The notes under the pieces: generated by a model | The model's input: only the letters and a program-made list of their open reading frames with translations | Databases searched by the model: none | Told to the model about the DNA's origin: nothing | Shown: positions 12,535-63,977 of the stretch, piece by piece | Layout of the letters: each line of letters starts with the position of its first letter | Numbering within the stretch: the stretch's first letter is position 1 | Origin: Saprospiraceae bacterium | Lineage (GTDB): Bacteria > Bacteroidota > Bacteroidia > Chitinophagales > Saprospiraceae | Assembly: GCA_016787345.1 (NCBI GenBank) | Contig: JAEUUU010000176.1 | Coordinates: forward strand, 41,798-105,797 | Length of the DNA: 64,000 nt | Reading direction: 5' to 3' | Position numbers and translations under genes: made by a program

Positions 12535-12740
12535 GGATTACATGATTGCAGATTACATGATTTTAGATTGTTGATTTAAGAAGTATCCTTAGCGTATAGC
12601 GCGACACTTAGTCAAGTGAAAAGCGGCCAATGCTAACACCTTCAACAATTTTAAATCATGTAATCTTAAATCATGTAATCTGCAATCATGTAATCTGCAA
12701 TCATGTAATCTGCAATCATGTAATCTGCAATCATGTAATT
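12535..12740. repeat. Inverted intergenic element with 15-bp tandem repeats
   Basis: This fills most of the 309 bp gene-free gap 12471-12779. The right arm has six in-phase copies of a 15-bp word (AATCATGTAATCTGC, first copies slightly variant) starting at 12654, 12669, 12684, 12699, 12714 and 12729. The left arm at 12535-12574 carries the same word in reverse orientation (about two copies). The two arms also share a reverse-complementary TTCAACAAT / ATTGTTGA segment. The roughly 70 bp between the arms holds no ORF. There are no unique spacers, so it is not a CRISPR array. Confidence 0.85.
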
Positions 12741-22289: not shown

Positions 22290-23273
22290 TTGGTCTTGAA
22301 AAAAAAATCCCCGATACTTGATACGGCTTGCCAAACCATTCGTATAGAAGCCGAAACATTATTGGCTCTGGCAGATAGCCTTGGCCAAACGCCGGATTTT
22401 GAATCCTGCGTAAAAGCACTGGCTGCCGGGCAGGGCAGACTGGTTATTACAGGCATCGGAAAAAGCGCCGTAGTGGCTCAAAAAATAGCGGCAACCCTCA
22501 ATTCGACGGGGCAGCCGGCCCTTTTCCTGCACGCCGCCGACGCCATCCACGGCGACCTGGGCATGATCCAGCCGGCCGACTTCGTGTTGTGTATTTCCAA
22601 AAGCGGAGAGACCCCCGAAATCAGGGTATTGGTCCCCCTGCTCAAAAACTTCGGCAACCCGCTTATTGCCATGACGGCCAACCGGGAATCTACCCTCGCC
22701 CGCCAGGCCGACTACGTGCTCTGGACGCCTGTGGAACAAGAGGCCGACCCCAACAACCTCGCCCCTACGGCCAGCACCACCGCCCAAATGGCGCTGGGAG
22801 ATGCCCTGGCCACGGCCCTGGTAGCACTGCGCGGGTTTTCGGCACAGGATTTTGCCAAATTCCACCCCGGCGGCGCACTCGGCAAACAGCTGTACCTGCG
22901 GGTGCGTGAACTGTACACACTCCACGAACGACCGGTGGTACCGCCACAGGCTACGTTGCCGGAAATCATCCATGAAATTTCTTCCAAACGCCTCGGCGCA
23001 ACAGCAGTACTCGACGATACGGGCCGCCTGCTCGGCATCATCACCGACGGCGACCTGCGTCGTATGCTCGCCCGCCGGGACACCGAACTGACCCAACTTT
23101 GCGCCGCCGACGTGCTGTCTCCTCACCCCAAAACCATCTCGCCCGATGCCCTGGCCGTAGATGCTCTGGCCATGCTGCGCCAATACTCGATCACGCAGCT
23201 CGTTGTTCTGGAAGACGACCAATACAAGGGTATGGTGCATCTGCACGATTTGGTGCGCGAAGGGCTGCTGTAG
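22290..23273 (+). CDS. kdsD: KpsF/GutQ-type sugar isomerase (arabinose-5-phosphate isomerase)
   Basis: A 327-residue cytosolic enzyme expected to convert ribulose 5-phosphate to arabinose 5-phosphate for Kdo synthesis in lipopolysaccharide. An N-terminal SIS domain (about 30-180; VITGIGKSAVVAQKIAATL, CISKSGETPEI) is followed by two CBS domains (about 205-327; GIITDGDLRRML). The length is normal. No ATG lies near the N-terminus. TTG 22290 or TTG 22296 must serve, and an in-frame stop sits just before 22290. The last codons CTG-TAG are the end of the repeat element that follows. Confidence 0.88.
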   Translation: MVLKKKSPILDTACQTIRIEAETLLALADSLGQTPDFESCVKALAAGQGRLVITGIGKSAVVAQKIAATLNSTGQPALFLHAADAIHGDLGMIQPADFVLCISKSGETPEIRVLVPLLKNFGNPLIAMTANRESTLARQADYVLWTPVEQEADPNNLAPTASTTAQMALGDALATALVALRGFSAQDFAKFHPGGALGKQLYLRVRELYTLHERPVVPPQATLPEIIHEISSKRLGATAVLDDTGRLLGIITDGDLRRMLARRDTELTQLCAADVLSPHPKTISPDALAVDALAMLRQYSITQLVVLEDDQYKGMVHLHDLVREGLL

Positions 23274-23450
23274 CGCCCTGTAGCGCCGACCTCCAGGTCG
23301 GCGAGTTTGAGGGCAGAAAACACCCGCGATCATCTGCCAAGGTGTACAATGATATTTACTGAAATGCGCCTACGGCAACAGCGCCTAATCGCGGGTATTT
23401 TCTTCTCTCAGCGTCGCCGACCTGGAGGTCGGCGCTACAGGGCGCTACAG
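23268..23450. repeat. Palindromic repeat element, copy A
   Basis: A 183-bp element bounded by a perfect 37-bp inverted repeat (23268-23304 with 23414-23450), containing the palindromic word GCCGACCTCCAGGTCGGC. A second inner pair, ACCCGCGAT (23322-23330) and ATCGCGGGT (23388-23396), brackets a 75-bp core. It sits exactly between the convergent genes kdsD and the winged-helix regulator and supplies the stop codon TAG of both (CTG-TAG). It probably forms a strong hairpin RNA and may act as a two-way terminator. Confidence 0.9.
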
Positions 23451-23729
23451 CGGAAAATACGTCTTCAAATCCTCGAAAAACACCTCGAACGCGGCAATAC
23501 CCGTCGGCGTGATTTTACAGATCGTCAAAGGATAACTCCCCTTGTAGGTTTTGACAACTTCGATATAACCCGCTTCCTGAAGTTTGGCGATCTGGGCACT
23601 GAGATTGCCCGCCGTGGCGCCCGTATGCTGTTTCAGGGCATTAAACTCCGCTTCCCTTGCCACCATTAAATGCGACATCACGGCAAGGCGCAATTGCGAC
23701 AACAAAAGAGGATCGAGGTCCTTAGTCAT
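23445..23729 (-). CDS. Winged-helix transcriptional regulator
   Basis: A 94-residue protein resembling small MarR/ArsR-like winged-helix regulators: QLRLAVMSHLMVAREAEF, LKQHTGATAGNLSAQIAKLQEAGYIEVVK (helix-turn-helix with recognition helix) and a wing before ITPTGIAAFEVF. ATG 23729 is chosen (MTKDLDPLL), giving an 8-bp overlap with the upstream membrane gene, so the two form an operon. Small regulators of this type commonly sit beside a membrane protein in Bacteroidota. Its last codons (CTG-TAG) fall in the end of repeat copy A. Confidence 0.8.
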   Translation of the reverse strand: MTKDLDPLLLSQLRLAVMSHLMVAREAEFNALKQHTGATAGNLSAQIAKLQEAGYIEVVKTYKGSYPLTICKITPTGIAAFEVFFEDLKTYFPL

Positions 23730-24418: not shown

Positions 24419-24559
24419 CTGTAGCGCCGACCTCCAGGTCGGCGACATTCGCGCGGAAAAAACCCGCGATTTTCTAATAATGCTAAAAAAGACTGTTACT
24501 GCATTTCGCTGCCCCGGCAATCGCGCTGGATCGCGGGTTGTTGCTGCCCTCAGTGTCGC
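24419..24559. repeat. Palindromic repeat element, diverged copy B1
   Basis: Starts with CTGTAGCGCCGACCTCCAGG (palindromic end as in copy A). The inner ACCCGCGAT...ATCGCGGGT pair is kept, but the core is diverged, recognisable only by segments such as GTTACTGCATTTCGCTG and CGGCAA. The right palindrome is missing; copy B2 begins directly where it should be, so B2 may have inserted into or recombined with B1. It lies in the 400-bp gene-free gap 24319-24718. Confidence 0.7.
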
Positions 24560-24724
24560 CTGTAGCGCCGACCTCCAGGTCGGCGACGCCGTGAGCAGAA
24601 AAAACCCGCGATTAGGCGTTATTGCCGGAGGCGCATTTCAGTAAATATCATCGTACACCTTGGCAGATGATCGCGGGTATTTTCTGCCCTCAAATTCGCC
24701 GACCTGGAGAGGTCGGCGCTACAG
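24560..24724. repeat. Palindromic repeat element, copy B2
   Basis: Full-length relative of copy A in the opposite orientation. The reverse complement of its 75-bp core differs from the A core at only about four positions. The right palindrome carries a 2-bp insertion (CCTGGAGAGGTCGG). Its right end CTACAG supplies the stop codon of the neighbouring minus-strand gene. A and B2 therefore form a large inverted repeat flanking the regulator/membrane operon. Confidence 0.88.
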
Positions 24725-25819: not shown

Positions 25820-26125
25820 ATGACCATGAAAGCCTCTTTTGCCAACCTGATCCAGTCCGAAACACCCGTTCTGATCGACTTTTGGGCCACCTGGTGCGGC
25901 CCCTGCAAGGCCATGATGCCGGTACTGGACGAACTCAAAGCCGAACTCGGCGACCGCGTCCGTATCATTAAAATCGACGTGGACAAAAATATCGACCTGG
26001 CAGCCGATATGAAAGTGATGGGCGTCCCGACGTTTATGCTTTTTCATCAGGGAAAAGAACTGTGGCGCCAACCCGGTGTACTGACCAAGGAAGCCCTGAA
26101 ACAAGTGATCGAAACAACTGTATGA
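25820..26125 (+). CDS. trxA: Thioredoxin
   Basis: A 101-residue cytosolic thioredoxin with the active site WCGPC (C26, C29) in LIDFWATWCGPCKAMMPV, the buried Asp, and the cis-Pro loop VMGVPTFMLF. The length is standard. ATG 25820 or 25826 may start it. The stop overlaps the ATG of the next gene (ATGA), coupling it to a VanY-type peptidase lipoprotein. That link has no obvious chemical meaning, so a gene-packing effect is likely. Confidence 0.93.
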   Translation: MTMKASFANLIQSETPVLIDFWATWCGPCKAMMPVLDELKAELGDRVRIIKIDVDKNIDLAADMKVMGVPTFMLFHQGKELWRQPGVLTKEALKQVIETTV

Positions 26126-26892
26126 AACAACTTTTTTGGTGGGCGGCACTCGGTGTACTGGCCTTGCTGGCTTGTCAAAATGCCCCCGGACCCGCCCCCG
26201 TCGCCACACAAACGCCTGTTGCAACACCTCCTCTCGATACCTTCCCCGCCATGGGCGTCGACTACCTGATGGGCAAATTCGACCCGGCCACCCGGACCGA
26301 CTTTGTCAAAATAGGCAAGCCCTACACCGACAAAACCGGTATGATGCTGCGCAAAGAGGCTTTTGAAGCTTTTGAAAAAATGTGGACCGCCGCCCGCAAC
26401 GACGGCATTACGCTGAAAATCATCTCTTCCACCCGCACCTTTTCCCAACAAAAAGCCATTTGGGAAGGCAAGTGGTCGCGTTTTGCCCAGGAAACACCCG
26501 ACCCGGAAAAACGCGCCCTGCGCATACTCGAATACTCGGCCATGCCCGGCGTATCGCGGCACCACTGGGGCACCGATATTGACCTGAATGACCTCAATAA
26601 CCCTTCCTTCGAAAACAATGGCGCCCACAAAAGCGCGTACGAATGGTTGGCCAAACACGCCCATGAATACGGCTTTTGCCAGCCCTACACGCCCCTCAGC
26701 GATCCGCACCGCACCGGCTACCACGAAGAAAAATGGCACTGGTCGTACACCCCGCTTTCACGCCCTTTGCTCGATCAATACCTCAAAACCGTCAACGACT
26801 CCATGATTTCCGGCTTCACCGGCGCCGAAACCGCCAACGGCATCCGGGTCGTGGAAAACTACGCCGCAGGCATCAACACAGCATGTAGATAA
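26122..26892 (+). CDS. VanY-type D-Ala-D-Ala carboxypeptidase lipoprotein (M15B)
   Basis: A 256-residue periplasmic lipoprotein. The signal ends in lipobox LLAC (Cys 18), then a Pro/Thr-rich tether, then a peptidase M15B domain (about 55-235). The zinc-site motifs are SRHHWGTDIDL (His and Asp ligands) and EKWHW (catalytic Glu/third His region), plus ISSTRTFSQQKAIW earlier. It should trim the terminal D-Ala of peptidoglycan stem peptides. ATG 26122 overlaps the thioredoxin stop. Directly after the stop codon an inverted repeat element begins. Confidence 0.9.
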   Translation: MKQLFWWAALGVLALLACQNAPGPAPVATQTPVATPPLDTFPAMGVDYLMGKFDPATRTDFVKIGKPYTDKTGMMLRKEAFEAFEKMWTAARNDGITLKIISSTRTFSQQKAIWEGKWSRFAQETPDPEKRALRILEYSAMPGVSRHHWGTDIDLNDLNNPSFENNGAHKSAYEWLAKHAHEYGFCQPYTPLSDPHRTGYHEEKWHWSYTPLSRPLLDQYLKTVNDSMISGFTGAETANGIRVVENYAAGINTACR

Positions 26893-27165
26893 TGGTGAGG
26901 TGGTGAGAAGGTGGTTATTCGGTGAGGTGGTGAATTGGTTATAAAAGGGTTGCTACTTCTCTCTTGTAATAATTTGAACATCGTAGACCCTGAAATGAGT
27001 GCAGAAACAACCCTTTTATAACCAATTCACCACCTCACCGAATAACCAATATTTGAAATGAGTGCAGAAACAACCCTTTTATAACCAATTCACCAATTCA
27101 CCGCATAACCACCTTTTCACCGCATAACCACCTTCTCACCACCTCACCGAATAACCAACTATTCA
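26893..27165. repeat. Inverted-repeat element with conserved loop, copy E1
   Basis: A 41-bp perfect inverted repeat (26912-26952 with 27008-27048) encloses a 55-bp loop. The loop contains CTTCTCTCTTGTAATA and ACCCTGAAATGAG. The arms are built of words such as GGTGAGGTGGTGA and ATTGGTTAT. The right half (TGAAATGAGTGCAGAAAC plus arm) is repeated a second time from about 27053, followed by further GCATAACCACCTT tandem words up to the next ATG. The interval holds no ORF. Confidence 0.88.
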
Positions 27166-27169
27166 ATCA

Positions 27170-27733
27170 ATGGCCTACACCGAATCCAACATGCTCCCGC
27201 TGGGCACGCTTGCGCCCGATTTTTCACTGCCCGACACCCAAAGCGGCAAAGTCGTTTCACTGCGCGAACTTGCCTCTCCGAAGGCTACAGTAGTGATGTT
27301 TTTGTGCAACCATTGCCCTTATGTATTGTACATCAACCCGGAAATCGTGCGGATCGTGGAAGAATATTCCCGGCAAGGCGTATCGTTTGTCGGCATCAGC
27401 AGCAACGACGCAGAAAGTTACCCCGACGACGCGCCCGACAAAATGAACGAACATGCACGCGCAGTAGGCTATACCTTTCCCTACCTTTACGACGAATCGC
27501 AGACCGTAGCGCGCGCCTACGATGCCGCCTGTACCCCCGATTTTTATGTGTTCGACGGCGACCTGCGACTCGTTTACCGCGGCCAGCTCGATTCGAGCCG
27601 ACCCAAAAGAAATCCCTTGCCGCCTACCGGCGAAGACCTGCGCGCCGCACTCGATGCGGTTTTGGCAGGCCGGACGCCCGACGGCGTTCAGCGCCCCTCC
27701 GGAGGCTGCAACATCAAATGGAAAAATAACTGA
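27170..27733 (+). CDS. Thioredoxin-fold redoxin (peroxiredoxin-like)
   Basis: A 187-residue cytosolic thioredoxin-fold protein of the AhpC/TSA-redoxin type. The start is LGTLAPDFSLPDTQSGKVVS. The redox motif is FLCNHCPYV (C46 and C49), followed by FVGISSNDAESYPDDAP and CTPDFYVFD. This CNHC variant is common in a redoxin subfamily annotated only as thioredoxin family protein; the substrate is unknown. ATG 27170 follows directly after the repeat array, so the ribosome-binding region lies inside repeat-derived DNA. Confidence 0.85.
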   Translation: MAYTESNMLPLGTLAPDFSLPDTQSGKVVSLRELASPKATVVMFLCNHCPYVLYINPEIVRIVEEYSRQGVSFVGISSNDAESYPDDAPDKMNEHARAVGYTFPYLYDESQTVARAYDAACTPDFYVFDGDLRLVYRGQLDSSRPKRNPLPPTGEDLRAALDAVLAGRTPDGVQRPSGGCNIKWKNN

Positions 27734-27798
27734 TCCGGCCAGCCGGCTCGATTGCTCACCCCCTTCAAGCCGGTCAACCATTCATCCAACCGTTCTTT

Positions 27799-28659
27799 AT
27801 GTATCCTTCGCCCATTACCAGCGAACAAATCGACGCTTTTATCGCAGCGGCCATCCACGAAGATGTGCACGACGGCGACCATACCTCGCAAGCCTGTATT
27901 CCGGCCGACAGCCGCAGCCGGGCTATCCTGAAAATTAAAGACTACGGCGTTATCGCCGGCGTCGAGCTGGCCCAGCGTATTTTCCGGCATGTCGACCCTT
28001 CCAGTACCGTCACGGTGCTCAAGCCCGACGGCACCGATGTGCTCTATGGTGAAACAGCTTTTGAAGTGGAAGCCAATACCCGCGCCCTCCTGCTGGCCGA
28101 GCGCACCGTACTGAATACCATGCAACGCATGAGCGGCATCGCTACCCTGGCCAGCCGTTTTGCGTTTGAGGTGGGCGACCTGCCCGTCAAAGTACTCGAC
28201 ACCCGCAAAACCACTCCCCTGATCCGTTTTTTGGAAAAATGGGCGGTCAAAATCGGCGGCTGTGAAAACTACCGCTGGGGTTTGTACGACTGGATTATGA
28301 TCAAAGACAACCACGTCGACGCGGCGGGCGGCATCAAAGCCGCACTCGACCGGGTAAAAGCGTACCAGGAAAGCAAAGGCCTGTCGCTCGGCGTCACGCT
28401 CGAAGTGCGCAACCTCGTGGAAGTACACGAAGCCCTCAAAGCCGGCGGATTTACCCGGCTGATGTTCGACAACTTCGAGATTCCGATCCTCCACGAGGCC
28501 GTGGCAACCGTCGGCGGCCAGTACGAAACGGAAGCCTCGGGCGGCATCACGCTGTTCAACGTCCGGAAATACGCCCAAACCGGCGTCAACTACGTCTCCG
28601 CCGGCGCACTGACCCACTCGGCACAGCCGCTGGATTTGAGCTTGAAAATCGTCAAATGA
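27799..28659 (+). CDS. nadC: Nicotinate-nucleotide pyrophosphorylase (carboxylating)
   Basis: A 286-residue enzyme of de novo NAD synthesis. It converts quinolinate and PRPP to nicotinate mononucleotide, releasing CO2. Conserved parts are EDVHDGDHTSQACIP near the start, ERTVLNTMQRMSGIAT, the phosphate-binding DTRKTTP, IKDNHVDAAGG, and the C-terminal ASGGITLFNVRKYAQTGVNYVS. The length is normal. No nadA or nadB is nearby. Another inverted repeat element follows the stop. Confidence 0.95.
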   Translation: MYPSPITSEQIDAFIAAAIHEDVHDGDHTSQACIPADSRSRAILKIKDYGVIAGVELAQRIFRHVDPSSTVTVLKPDGTDVLYGETAFEVEANTRALLLAERTVLNTMQRMSGIATLASRFAFEVGDLPVKVLDTRKTTPLIRFLEKWAVKIGGCENYRWGLYDWIMIKDNHVDAAGGIKAALDRVKAYQESKGLSLGVTLEVRNLVEVHEALKAGGFTRLMFDNFEIPILHEAVATVGGQYETEASGGITLFNVRKYAQTGVNYVSAGALTHSAQPLDLSLKIVK

Positions 28660-28666
28660 TCTATAT

Positions 28667-28821
28667 TGGTGAATCGGGTTTTGGGTTTTGGGTTTTGGGT
28701 TTTGGCAAAAGGGTTATTGCTTCTCTCTTGTAATACTTTAAATATTAAAAACCCTGAAATGAGAGCAGCAATAACCCTTTTGCCAAAACCCAAAACCTAA
28801 AACCCAAAACCCAATTCACCA
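28667..28821. repeat. Inverted-repeat element with conserved loop, copy E2
   Basis: A 54-bp inverted repeat with two mismatches (28667-28720 with 28768-28821) encloses a 47-bp loop. The arms are tandem TTTTGGG words ending in GGCAAAAGGGTTATTGC. The loop again has CTTCTCTCTTGTAATA and ACCCTGAAATGAG, as in E1, although the outer arms differ. It lies between nadC and the next ORF. Confidence 0.9.
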
Positions 28822-28845
28822 AATAACCACAAAAACACATCTACC

Positions 28846-29274
28846 ATGTCCGCCGACAATTTCTACTGGTATTCTACCGTCCTGATCTTCATCCCCTGGG
28901 TGCTGCTGATCTTTATGCCCAGCTGGCGTTTTACCGAACGTATTGCTTTTGGCGCGGGGTTTGTTTTGCTGGTAGCGGCGGCGTATTTTACGATCAGCTA
29001 TTTGCTGGGCGGGCGCGATGAAGGCAGTCTGTTATCGCTCGACGGACTGACGCATTTGTTTCGCAGCAAGGAAATGTTGCTGACCGGCTGGCTGAATTAT
29101 CTGTCGTTCAGCTTGTTTGCCGGCGCATTTCAGGTGCACGACGGACGCGAGAACGAGATTCCGCACCTTTGGGTAGTCCCCTGTCTGGTGCTCACTTTTG
29201 TAGCCGGCCCCAGCGGTCTGCTGCTTTACCTCGGCCTTCGTTGGCTTAAAACCCGAAAATGGGAAGGGCGGTAA
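28846..29274 (+). CDS. ABA4-like (DUF4281) membrane protein
   Basis: A 142-residue inner-membrane protein with four hydrophobic segments (STVLIFIPWVLLIFMP, IAFGAGFVLLVAAAYFTISYLL, WLNYLSFSLFAGAFQ, PHLWVVPCLVLTFVAGPSGLLLYLG). The sequence, especially GWLNYLSFSLFAGAFQVHD and TFVAGPSGLLLYLG, matches the ABA4-like family named after a plant neoxanthin-synthesis protein. A bacterial role is not known, and a carotenoid link is only a guess. It ends 14 bp before the helicase ATG, so cotranscription is likely. Confidence 0.82.
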   Translation: MSADNFYWYSTVLIFIPWVLLIFMPSWRFTERIAFGAGFVLLVAAAYFTISYLLGGRDEGSLLSLDGLTHLFRSKEMLLTGWLNYLSFSLFAGAFQVHDGRENEIPHLWVVPCLVLTFVAGPSGLLLYLGLRWLKTRKWEGR

Positions 29275-44503: not shown

Positions 44504-45064
44504 ATGGAAGACGTCAGTAAAACCATGGCCGAAGCAAAGGCCCACATGGACAAAGCACTGGAGCACCTTGACCACGAGCTGGCCAAACTCCGCACCGGCA
44601 AAGCCTCTACCAACCTTATTCAAGACATTCACGTCGAGTATTACGGCTCCCCCACCCTGCTCGCCCAGGTCGCCAACGTTCAGGTCGCCGATGCCCGAAC
44701 CATCATTATCCAACCCTGGGAACGCAATATGCTCGGCCCCATCGAACGCGCACTCATCAACGCCAACCTCGGCATCACGCCCGCTAACGACGGCGAAATA
44801 ATCCGCCTCGCTGTGCCGCCGCTCACCGAAGAACGCCGCAAGGAACTGGTTAAAAAAGCCAAACATGCCGGCGAAGAAAGCAAGGTCGGTGTGCGCAACG
44901 CCCGTCACAAAGCCCTGGACCACATCAAAAAAGCCGTCAAAGAAGGCCTTCCGGAAGACCTCGGCAAACGCAAGGAAACCGAACTTCAGGACCTGGTCAA
45001 CAAATACGTCGAGCAGGTAGAAAAGGTCGTTACCGTCAAGGAAAAAGAAATCATGACCGTGTAA
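44504..45064 (+). CDS. frr: Ribosome recycling factor
   Basis: A 186-residue protein that splits post-termination ribosomes with EF-G. Family motifs are HLDHELAKLRTGKASTNLI near the start, YYGSPTLLAQVANV, LTEERRKELVKKAK and RNARHKALDHIKKA. The length is standard. ATG 44504 (MEDVSKTMAEAKAHM) is chosen; the open frame extends upstream but the family starts here. A TAATGTGC repeat element follows the stop. Confidence 0.96.
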   Translation: MEDVSKTMAEAKAHMDKALEHLDHELAKLRTGKASTNLIQDIHVEYYGSPTLLAQVANVQVADARTIIIQPWERNMLGPIERALINANLGITPANDGEIIRLAVPPLTEERRKELVKKAKHAGEESKVGVRNARHKALDHIKKAVKEGLPEDLGKRKETELQDLVNKYVEQVEKVVTVKEKEIMTV

Positions 45065-45211
45065 TTTAATGTGCTAATGAGATAATGTGCTAATGGGCGG
45101 TTGTGGACTATGGAGGCAGTACGCCTCTTTCCCCATTAGCACATTAAAAAATTAGCACATTCCCCCATTCCCTCATTAGCACATTAGCACATTCCCTCAT
45201 TAGCACATTAA
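45065..45211. repeat. Inverted element of TAATGTGC words
   Basis: The left arm (45066-45096) has TAATGTGC and GATAATGTGCTAATGGG. The right arm (45131-45211) holds at least five reverse copies (CATTAGCACATT) separated by CCCTC or AAAAA. Between them lies a small hairpin, GAGGC-AGTAC-GCCTC. It fills the whole gap between frr and the DUF5606 gene and ends 5 bp before the GTG start codon. Confidence 0.85.
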
Positions 45212-45216
45212 ATAAA

Positions 45217-55856: not shown

Positions 55857-55864
55857 CTTTTTTT

Positions 55865-56152
55865 AATGATGAATGATGAATGATAGATGATGAATTCTAT
55901 AAACCCTTCTGGGCCAATATATACCGCGCATCGTCAGGTTTTCAGCATGACAGGTTTCATAAACCCATATCAACCTTATAAACCTCCTGCCTAAATCTTC
56001 CCGGCACGAGTTATAATATTTAAGGTAAATTTTCAAAAAATATTCACAACTAATTGACCTACAACTACTTTTACACCCCGAATAGTTCAATTCAGCAGGC
56101 AGAAACAACCCTTTTGTCAAATCCTCGCATCCTCATATCCTCGCATCCTCAT
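55865..56152. repeat. Composite intergenic repeat region with half-core E3
   Basis: This 298-bp gap between divergent genes starts with GATGAAT words (55867-55893), followed by an AT-rich part with TTCATAAACCC and CCTTATAAACC. GCAGAAACAACCCTTTT at 56099-56115 is identical to the right end of the E1 core. Two perfect tandem copies of ATCCTCGCATCCTCAT follow (56121-56136, 56137-56152) and end 2 bp before the next ATG. No protein gene is seen. Confidence 0.75.
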
Positions 56153-56154
56153 TT

Positions 56155-63784: not shown

Positions 63785-63977
<193 letters not shown>

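Follow-up and report, generated by a model that had tools for sequence, protein, structure and literature searches.

Two long palindromes of an uncultured Saprospiraceae bacterium, E1 (26893-27158) and E2 (28666-28822), share their anatomy with hairpins found throughout the genome, which follow a position rule with respect to genes, have arms that mirror each other beyond their word class, and differ at the same sites between near relatives. The explanation that we put forward, tentatively, takes E1 and E2 as two members of a lineage-specific family of long palindromes between genes: 3'-end palindromic repeats that would be kept mirrored through hairpin-templated copying and that probably act at transcript ends.

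The window analyzed here is a stretch of 64,000 nucleotides (G000:C141:41798-105797) of genome G000, which comprises 5.28 Mb in 191 contigs. The nearest relative in the genome set is G025 (640 contigs), with flanks ~92 to 98% identical to those of G000; G034 is a third genome of the same Saprospiraceae genus, and G009 is an assembly of 7 contigs. L-numbers designate sequence stretches of single loci, and locus pairs are written G000/G025. Genes were called with a simple codon-usage caller, and a 384-kb sample of G000 was made of the window and sixteen 20-kb stretches chosen by coordinate.

Anatomy of E1 and E2

As originally predicted, E1 and E2 are long inverted repeats with shared blocks and mirrored outer words. 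The inverted-repeat search gave arms of 52 nt (92% complementary) for E1 and of 62 nt (95% complementary) for E2, with 33 nt between the arms in both. Their folds, at -118.7 kcal/mol (z -14.6) and -102.5 kcal/mol (z -17.9), respectively, were not equaled in stability by any shuffled sequence (0/200 for each element). Both are real palindromes, well outside chance expectation.

E1 starts at the first base past the stop codon of ORF 26062-26892, a VanY-domain gene. On the plus strand, its left outer arm (26893-26942) consists of class A words (GGTGAGGTGG / TTGGTTAT) and is followed by the inner arm AAAAGGGTTGCTACTTCTCTC (26943-26963), a variant of the 21-nt core described below, and by a 33-nt loop (26964-26996). 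The right side (26997-27048) comprises the inner right arm (26997-27017) and a first right outer arm (27018-27048), after which the right half is duplicated (27054-27158), with a second inner right arm (27060-27080) and a second right outer arm. E1 ends 11 nt short of the next gene, whose ATG is at 27170.

E2 starts 6 nt past the stop codon of nadC, encoding quinolinate phosphoribosyltransferase, and ends 23 nt before the ATG of a gene for an ABA4-like membrane protein. The left outer arm (28666-28706), the inner arm AAAAGGGTTATTGCTTCTCTC (28707-28727), the 33-nt loop (28728-28760), and the right outer arm (28782-28822) are given on the plus strand; on the minus strand, the inner right arm (28761-28781, i.e., G000:C141:70558-70578) reproduces the 21-nt core exactly. 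The outer arms of E1 and E2 had been described as entirely different, but the class B words (TTTTGGG) inside the E2 arms are nested on both sides within class A words, TTGGTGAATC on the left and AATTCACCAA on the right. Moreover, the 16-nt loop block CTTCTCTCTTGTAATA splits in two: the first half, CTTCTCTC, still belongs to the inner arm and forms its end, and the loop proper shared by E1 and E2 is TTGTAATA only. The E1 loop also carries the end block CCCTGAAAT, which several other class A loops have in common.

The genes around both elements are ordinary (VanY carboxypeptidase, AhpC/TSA, nadC, and ABA4-like). Rfam families gave 24 matches in 26500-29200, all of them microRNA precursor models below their gathering scores, such as any long hairpin could give. 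A sigma-70 scan of 26700-29000, of little value in Bacteroidetes, returned 0 sites.

The repeated inner arm and its place behind genes

The part of E1 and E2 that is repeated is the inner arm. With at most 2 mismatches, the core AAAAGGGTTRTTKCTGCTCTC has 193 matches in G000 (99+94) and 148 in G025, versus 1 match in G000 (0+1) and 1 in G025 for the reversed-pattern control. The genome-wide search with the loop block, suggested along with the original prediction, found CTTCTCTCTTGTAATA exactly in G000 only at E1 and E2 and, at 2 mismatches, at two other places, neither of them a hairpin of the E1/E2 kind; a longer loop pattern had no exact match in the species collection. The predicted organization of a conserved center with variable mirrored arms is thus found genome-wide, with the inner arm and not the loop as its center. 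Indeed, the 81 loops of G000 and G025 cluster into 47 families, 35 of them single, under a clustering so strict that even the E1 and E2 loops are kept apart, making the locus-specific loops an upper estimate. The one large loop family (19 loops) is found as often in one orientation as in the other (27 and 27 matches), and the spacers of 48 hairpins peak at 33 to 38 and at 62 to 84 nt.

This core appears restricted to a narrow lineage. In a one-genome-per-species collection, which may omit records of, or close to, G000 itself, all stretches with exact AAAAGGGTTRTTKCTGCTCTC (24/24) belong to Saprospiraceae bacterium isolate SJ871, which we take to be G025. BLAST with the whole E2 core matched the inner arm all over G000, in at least 121 pieces (40 of the 66 candidates being scored); across 60 genomes, 13 had a match at an E value of ≤0.1, G000 and G025 being the only genomes of the genus with several matches. 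A phage-derived insert as the source of the loop was considered only, and the two cores searched had no exact match in viral contigs.

A full element runs from outer words through the 21-nt inner arm, the loop, and the inner arm to the mirrored words. The 60 clusters read contain 152 arms (≤3 mismatches), from which, given the 193 matches, we infer ~75 clusters in G000. Their layout is plain "+-" in 28, nested two-sided in 19, and one-sided in 13 (≤3 mismatches), with no "-+" cluster among the 60. Start mis-calls apart, the clusters occupy gene gaps, and the distance from the inner arm to the stop codon is 17 to 50 nt in 43/65 cases. Among the 44 hairpins with both neighbors called, from which L064 was left out because of its palindromic contig end, 22 lie in convergent, 20 in codirectional, and 2 in divergent gaps, one of these two (L052) being a mis-call; the background in the 384 kb of G000 is 56 divergent gene pairs out of 280. 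For long intergenic inverted repeats with both neighbors called, divergent gaps account for 0/18 in this sample and for 3/21 in 220 kb sampled from other genomes within the genus. The caller placed 5/60 clusters in divergent gaps: by hand, L052 is codirectional, L165 (a single arm) and L044:1537 are divergent, the fourth (window 56095), also in a divergent gap, consists of one half-arm, and the fifth, L159, was left without assignment. The gap of the fourth (55857-56154 of the window) has TGATGAA words at its left and, at its right, one class C half-arm that includes the core, a half element whose hairpin cannot form.

Hairpins adjoining stop codons in convergent and codirectional gaps are also what bidirectional intrinsic terminators would look like, selected for stem strength only, with drifting sequence and with pairing maintained by ordinary compensatory substitution. 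The inner stem has an A-tract, stem, and T-tract on both strands, and the available text of PMC6060812 describes the inverted repeats just past E. coli stop codons as mostly terminator parts. However, the T-tract amounts to only 4 to 6 T in the loci printed and is followed by further stem, the terminator consensus scan (which takes loops of 3 to 8 only) called nothing at E1 or E2, and copies between codirectional genes can adjoin the next start codon. E1 and E2 end 11 and 23 nt from the next start codon, a space in which a promoter would hardly fit after a full terminator; for E1 and E2, this is evidence against complete terminators. Furthermore, terminators have no need for one 21-nt word at nearly 200 places, and a two-sided change of arm class between near relatives (see below) would be hard to reach stepwise. 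We consider terminators under selection for stem strength only to be improbable.

Mirroring of the arms and its possible origin

The outer arms of 48 G000 hairpins belong mostly to three classes, A (GGTGAATTGGTTAT), B (TTTTGGG-like), and C (GAGGATTTGAGGATGCGA), and a simple classifier assigns both arms to the same class in 40/48. The left outer arm overlaps itself best at lag 7 in 17, at lag 8 or 16 in 20, and at lag 14 in 5 of the 48, and these words are mirrored as well. Left-versus-right arm identity is 0.77 within a hairpin, 0.74 with other loci of the same class, and 0.57 between classes. The outer arms thus mirror each other and vary as predicted, but are not locus-specific, their word classes being common to many loci; conservation between loci, which had been named as evidence against the prediction, exists at the level of the class. 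Mirror identity averages 0.811 in the 40 same-class hairpins; when the right arms are permuted within their class, it drops to 0.767, and none of 10,000 permutations reached 0.811. The arms of one hairpin mirror each other beyond their shared word class. In the inner arm, pairs altered on both sides number 43 cells versus 17.4 when permuted; the class C inner arm has no excess of pairing (569/2000 permutations).

In all 48 core-family hairpins (48/48), the left arm has G over C. A G-rich-first polarity was rejected as a hallmark of these hairpins, being present in only 14/20 and 14/21 long inverted repeats of the wider samples, and gene gaps are skewed too. In G000 and other genomes of the genus, the left gap end has G over C and the right one C over G; this skew is present for each of the four gene arrangements (weakly in some) and is strongest upstream of start codons.

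In the explanation that we prefer, copies settle just past stop codons, where they would give long hairpins at transcript ends or between the genes of an operon. The folded hairpin would template its own copying: a polymerase meeting a folded arm would switch to the other, one arm would be rewritten from its mirror, and the arms would stay mirrored. The template switch may sometimes flip the loop, and slippage in the words may lengthen the arms up to the flanking codons. Judging from position, any benefit would be exerted at the transcript end, through termination or exonuclease protection. This explanation is favored by the copy number, layout, and position of the hairpins, by the mirroring beyond class and the pairs altered on both sides (also in G034), by the words nested on both sides of E2, and by the inverted loops and exchanged arm classes of G000/G025 loci (see below). 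The 13/60 one-sided clusters and class C, with its lack of excess pairing, count against this explanation; the lack of a terminator call at E1/E2 and their short distances to start codons count against a function at transcript ends.

Alternatively, whole hairpins could hop between 3' ends as miniature mobile elements, arms included, with a transposase acting in trans (REPIN/RAYT-like or other). The same loop does occur at different loci (L018 and L020), L011 has two copies 0.85 kb apart with the loop inverted, E1 and E2 form a local pair, and two conserved repeats with a variable spacer are a REPIN-like layout, as described in the parts available of PMC3116915. Nevertheless, most loops are not common to different loci, no empty site was found among the 3 loci queried from G000 alone, and the 6 RAYT-type (PF01797) loci that G000 and G025 have, two of them partial domain matches, all lack the core within the 2.1 to 3.3 kb fetched. 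In our opinion, hopping of whole hairpins is rather unlikely.

Other palindromes lie near 5/6 of the RAYT-type loci. L130, with a RAYT-type gene, carries the same words as a hairpin at 45064-45213 of the window, whose core GCTAATGGGCGGTTGTGGACT has 7 matches in G000 and 6 in G025 (≤3 mismatches). The hairpins at 12536-12740, 45064-45213, and 63785-63977 are all built of mirrored tandem words (GATTACATGATTGCA, AATGTGCTAATG, TGATGAA) with other cores, close behind genes. REP-like palindromes starting with TGTAGCGCCGACCTCCAGGTCGGCG (GTAG tag) are found at 23267-23451 and 24432-24724, and L131 has this repeat too, close to a partial match to a Y1 transposase.

The same gene-end sites in related genomes

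The E1/E2 region has no match in G025, and the comparison with the near relative therefore rests on other loci. We compared 22 orthologous G000/G025 loci, 18 being scored for arm identity out of 19 pairs given; L063/L067 had no scored pair, L163b/L116b, L171/L106, and L049/L188 were assessed visually, and L157/L070 was not counted, as its elements are not comparable. Nineteen of the 22 loci were found via the core in both genomes and cannot show absence; at all 3 loci queried from G000 alone, G025 has a hairpin.

Loop and orientation are kept at 11/22 loci, and a half element is present in both genomes at 1/22. The loop is inverted at 5/22 (L007/L023, L018/L043, L016/L042, L019/L105, and L056/L108), with identities of 0.80 to 1.00; these inversions may be artefacts of short-read palindrome assembly. 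In L152/L125, loop identity is 0.65 forward, over loops that differ in length. At 5/22 loci, the same site carries another arm class (L063/L067, L161/L041, L163/L116, L046/L194, and L049/L188), with class A in G025 at all five, two of which are cut by a G025 contig end. We trust these swaps more where the flank-to-arm junction can be read on both sides, and there the other class is present at both junctions. Two swapped loci have scores for all four arms, with same-side identities of 0.50 to 0.61 between the genomes and mirror identities of 0.80 to 0.95. Fast rewriting from the mirror should leave mirrors closer to each other than same-side arms are, as in both of these loci; among the 13 unswapped loci with all four values, however, mirrors are closer in 5 and less close in 8, which argues against our preferred explanation. 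Moreover, template switching does not account for swapped sites where arms and loop both differ. The G025 hairpin of L067 (1480-1890) has REP-like repeats (CGACTTCTCCGAAGTCG) inside its long loop, and a similar repeat stands beside a RAYT-type gene in L129.

Since both G000 and G025 are fragmented assemblies (191 and 640 contigs), the hairpins could have been made or reshuffled by short-read assembly. The contig ends L008 1-266 and L064 1-341 are near-perfect palindromes running into coding sequence, and L013 1-140 is a tandem array of GCGAGGAT, signs of the assembly breaking at these hairpins. Yet two separate assemblies give the same loop and orientation at half of the loci compared (11/22), swapped sites with readable junctions show the other class on both sides, and mirrored-word hairpins are also present in G009, with its 7 contigs. 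As regards the existence of the hairpins, an assembly origin is mostly refuted, and we consider it very improbable overall.

Thirty nadC loci were fetched from genomes of the genus, and in 16 of them (G000 included), the ABA4-like gene comes next. In this gap, the E2 site, 5/16 carry a mirrored-word hairpin, with different words in each, 2 a REP-type inverted repeat, and 1 a weak one (17/20 pairs). The 8/16 without an inverted repeat of at least 17 pairs are counted against our preferred explanation; three of these gaps measure 0, 13, and 41 bases, and two contain an extra gene-length stretch. Long inverted repeats number 20 in the 384 kb of G000 and 21 in the 220 kb sampled elsewhere in the genus, compared to 1 in 140 kb taken from other families of this order and 1 in 50 kb of E. 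coli K-12.

G034 has 286 matches of GTCCTGAGTCTGTAGAGT, of which G000, G025, and G007 have none; most pairs among the matches listed are inverted, 70 to 73 nt apart. Its 26 hairpins read (20 stretches, L216-L235, plus L140) lie in 15 convergent, 10 codirectional, and, by the caller, 1 divergent gap. The loop-side stem differs from locus to locus with both sides altered together (64 cells versus 15.8 permuted, maximum 40), the outer words being constant and the inner stem variable, the opposite of G000. These hairpins are a second family, unrelated to the G000 core family, with the same layout and strong covariation. Several species of the genus might then each keep their own amplified 3'-end palindrome family, with fold and place inherited and sequence not, the same gene-end slot being refilled through hairpin-templated rewriting and whole-hairpin exchange with arms remaining mirrored; we regard this wider reading as rather doubtful.

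Dozens of natural replicates in two near genomes are now at hand to follow how pairing persists in long stems whose sequence is changing. Our study contributes a palindrome family at gene ends that lacks the transposase link known from REPs and, in G034, an unrelated family of the same layout. If hairpins are indeed swapped at fixed sites, place would be conserved where sequence is not, and sequence searches would miss such cases.

Comparison with known systems

The original prediction that no described class fits these elements agrees with our literature search, which found none, most subscription journals being outside its coverage. Like intrinsic terminators, the core-family hairpins are placed behind stop codons with an A-stem-T layout in the inner stem; unlike them, they are much longer, have word-repeat arms and a short T-tract, and give no call in the consensus scan limited to loops of 3 to 8. 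Cyanobacterial repeats are known under the names STRR and SDR. TAACTGA heptamers of Beggiatoaceae, Cyanobacteria, and Bacteroidetes are likewise intergenic, some just upstream of start codons, and their tandem words of ~7 nt recall those of our hairpins; the accessible part of their description (PMC4679880) presents them as direct repeats, with 169 sets counted in one genome and a single indirect one, whereas the core-family words are mirrored as hairpin arms around the core.

Homogenization of arms and inversion of the spacer are the effects of quasipalindrome mutation by template switching (PMC8604942; see also PMC8794818), and both may have their counterpart here; in the available parts of these papers, the process is described in yeast genes and RNA genes and not as genome-wide upkeep of a repeat family.

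REP and REPIN sequences come closest. They are extragenic, with many copies and inverted doublets around a variable spacer, often less than ~20 bp from stop codons in convergent or unidirectional gaps, as far as described in the parts available of PMC3116915 and PMC3733652; REP units have stems of 5 to 13 bp and a GTAG or CGTC tag (PMC3733652, same limit). The core family is likewise extragenic, in high copy (193 matches), arranged as inverted doublets with a spacer, and close to stop codons, so that the original view of these elements as the reverse of ordinary REPs was overstated. Unlike a REP, however, its 21-mer has no fold of its own (folding energy of 0) and a consensus without GTAG or CGTC, no RAYT-type locus carries it (0/6), and 30 to 40 nt of mirrored words stand outside the repeated 21-mer. 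The core family could act like a REP, yet we do not class it as one.
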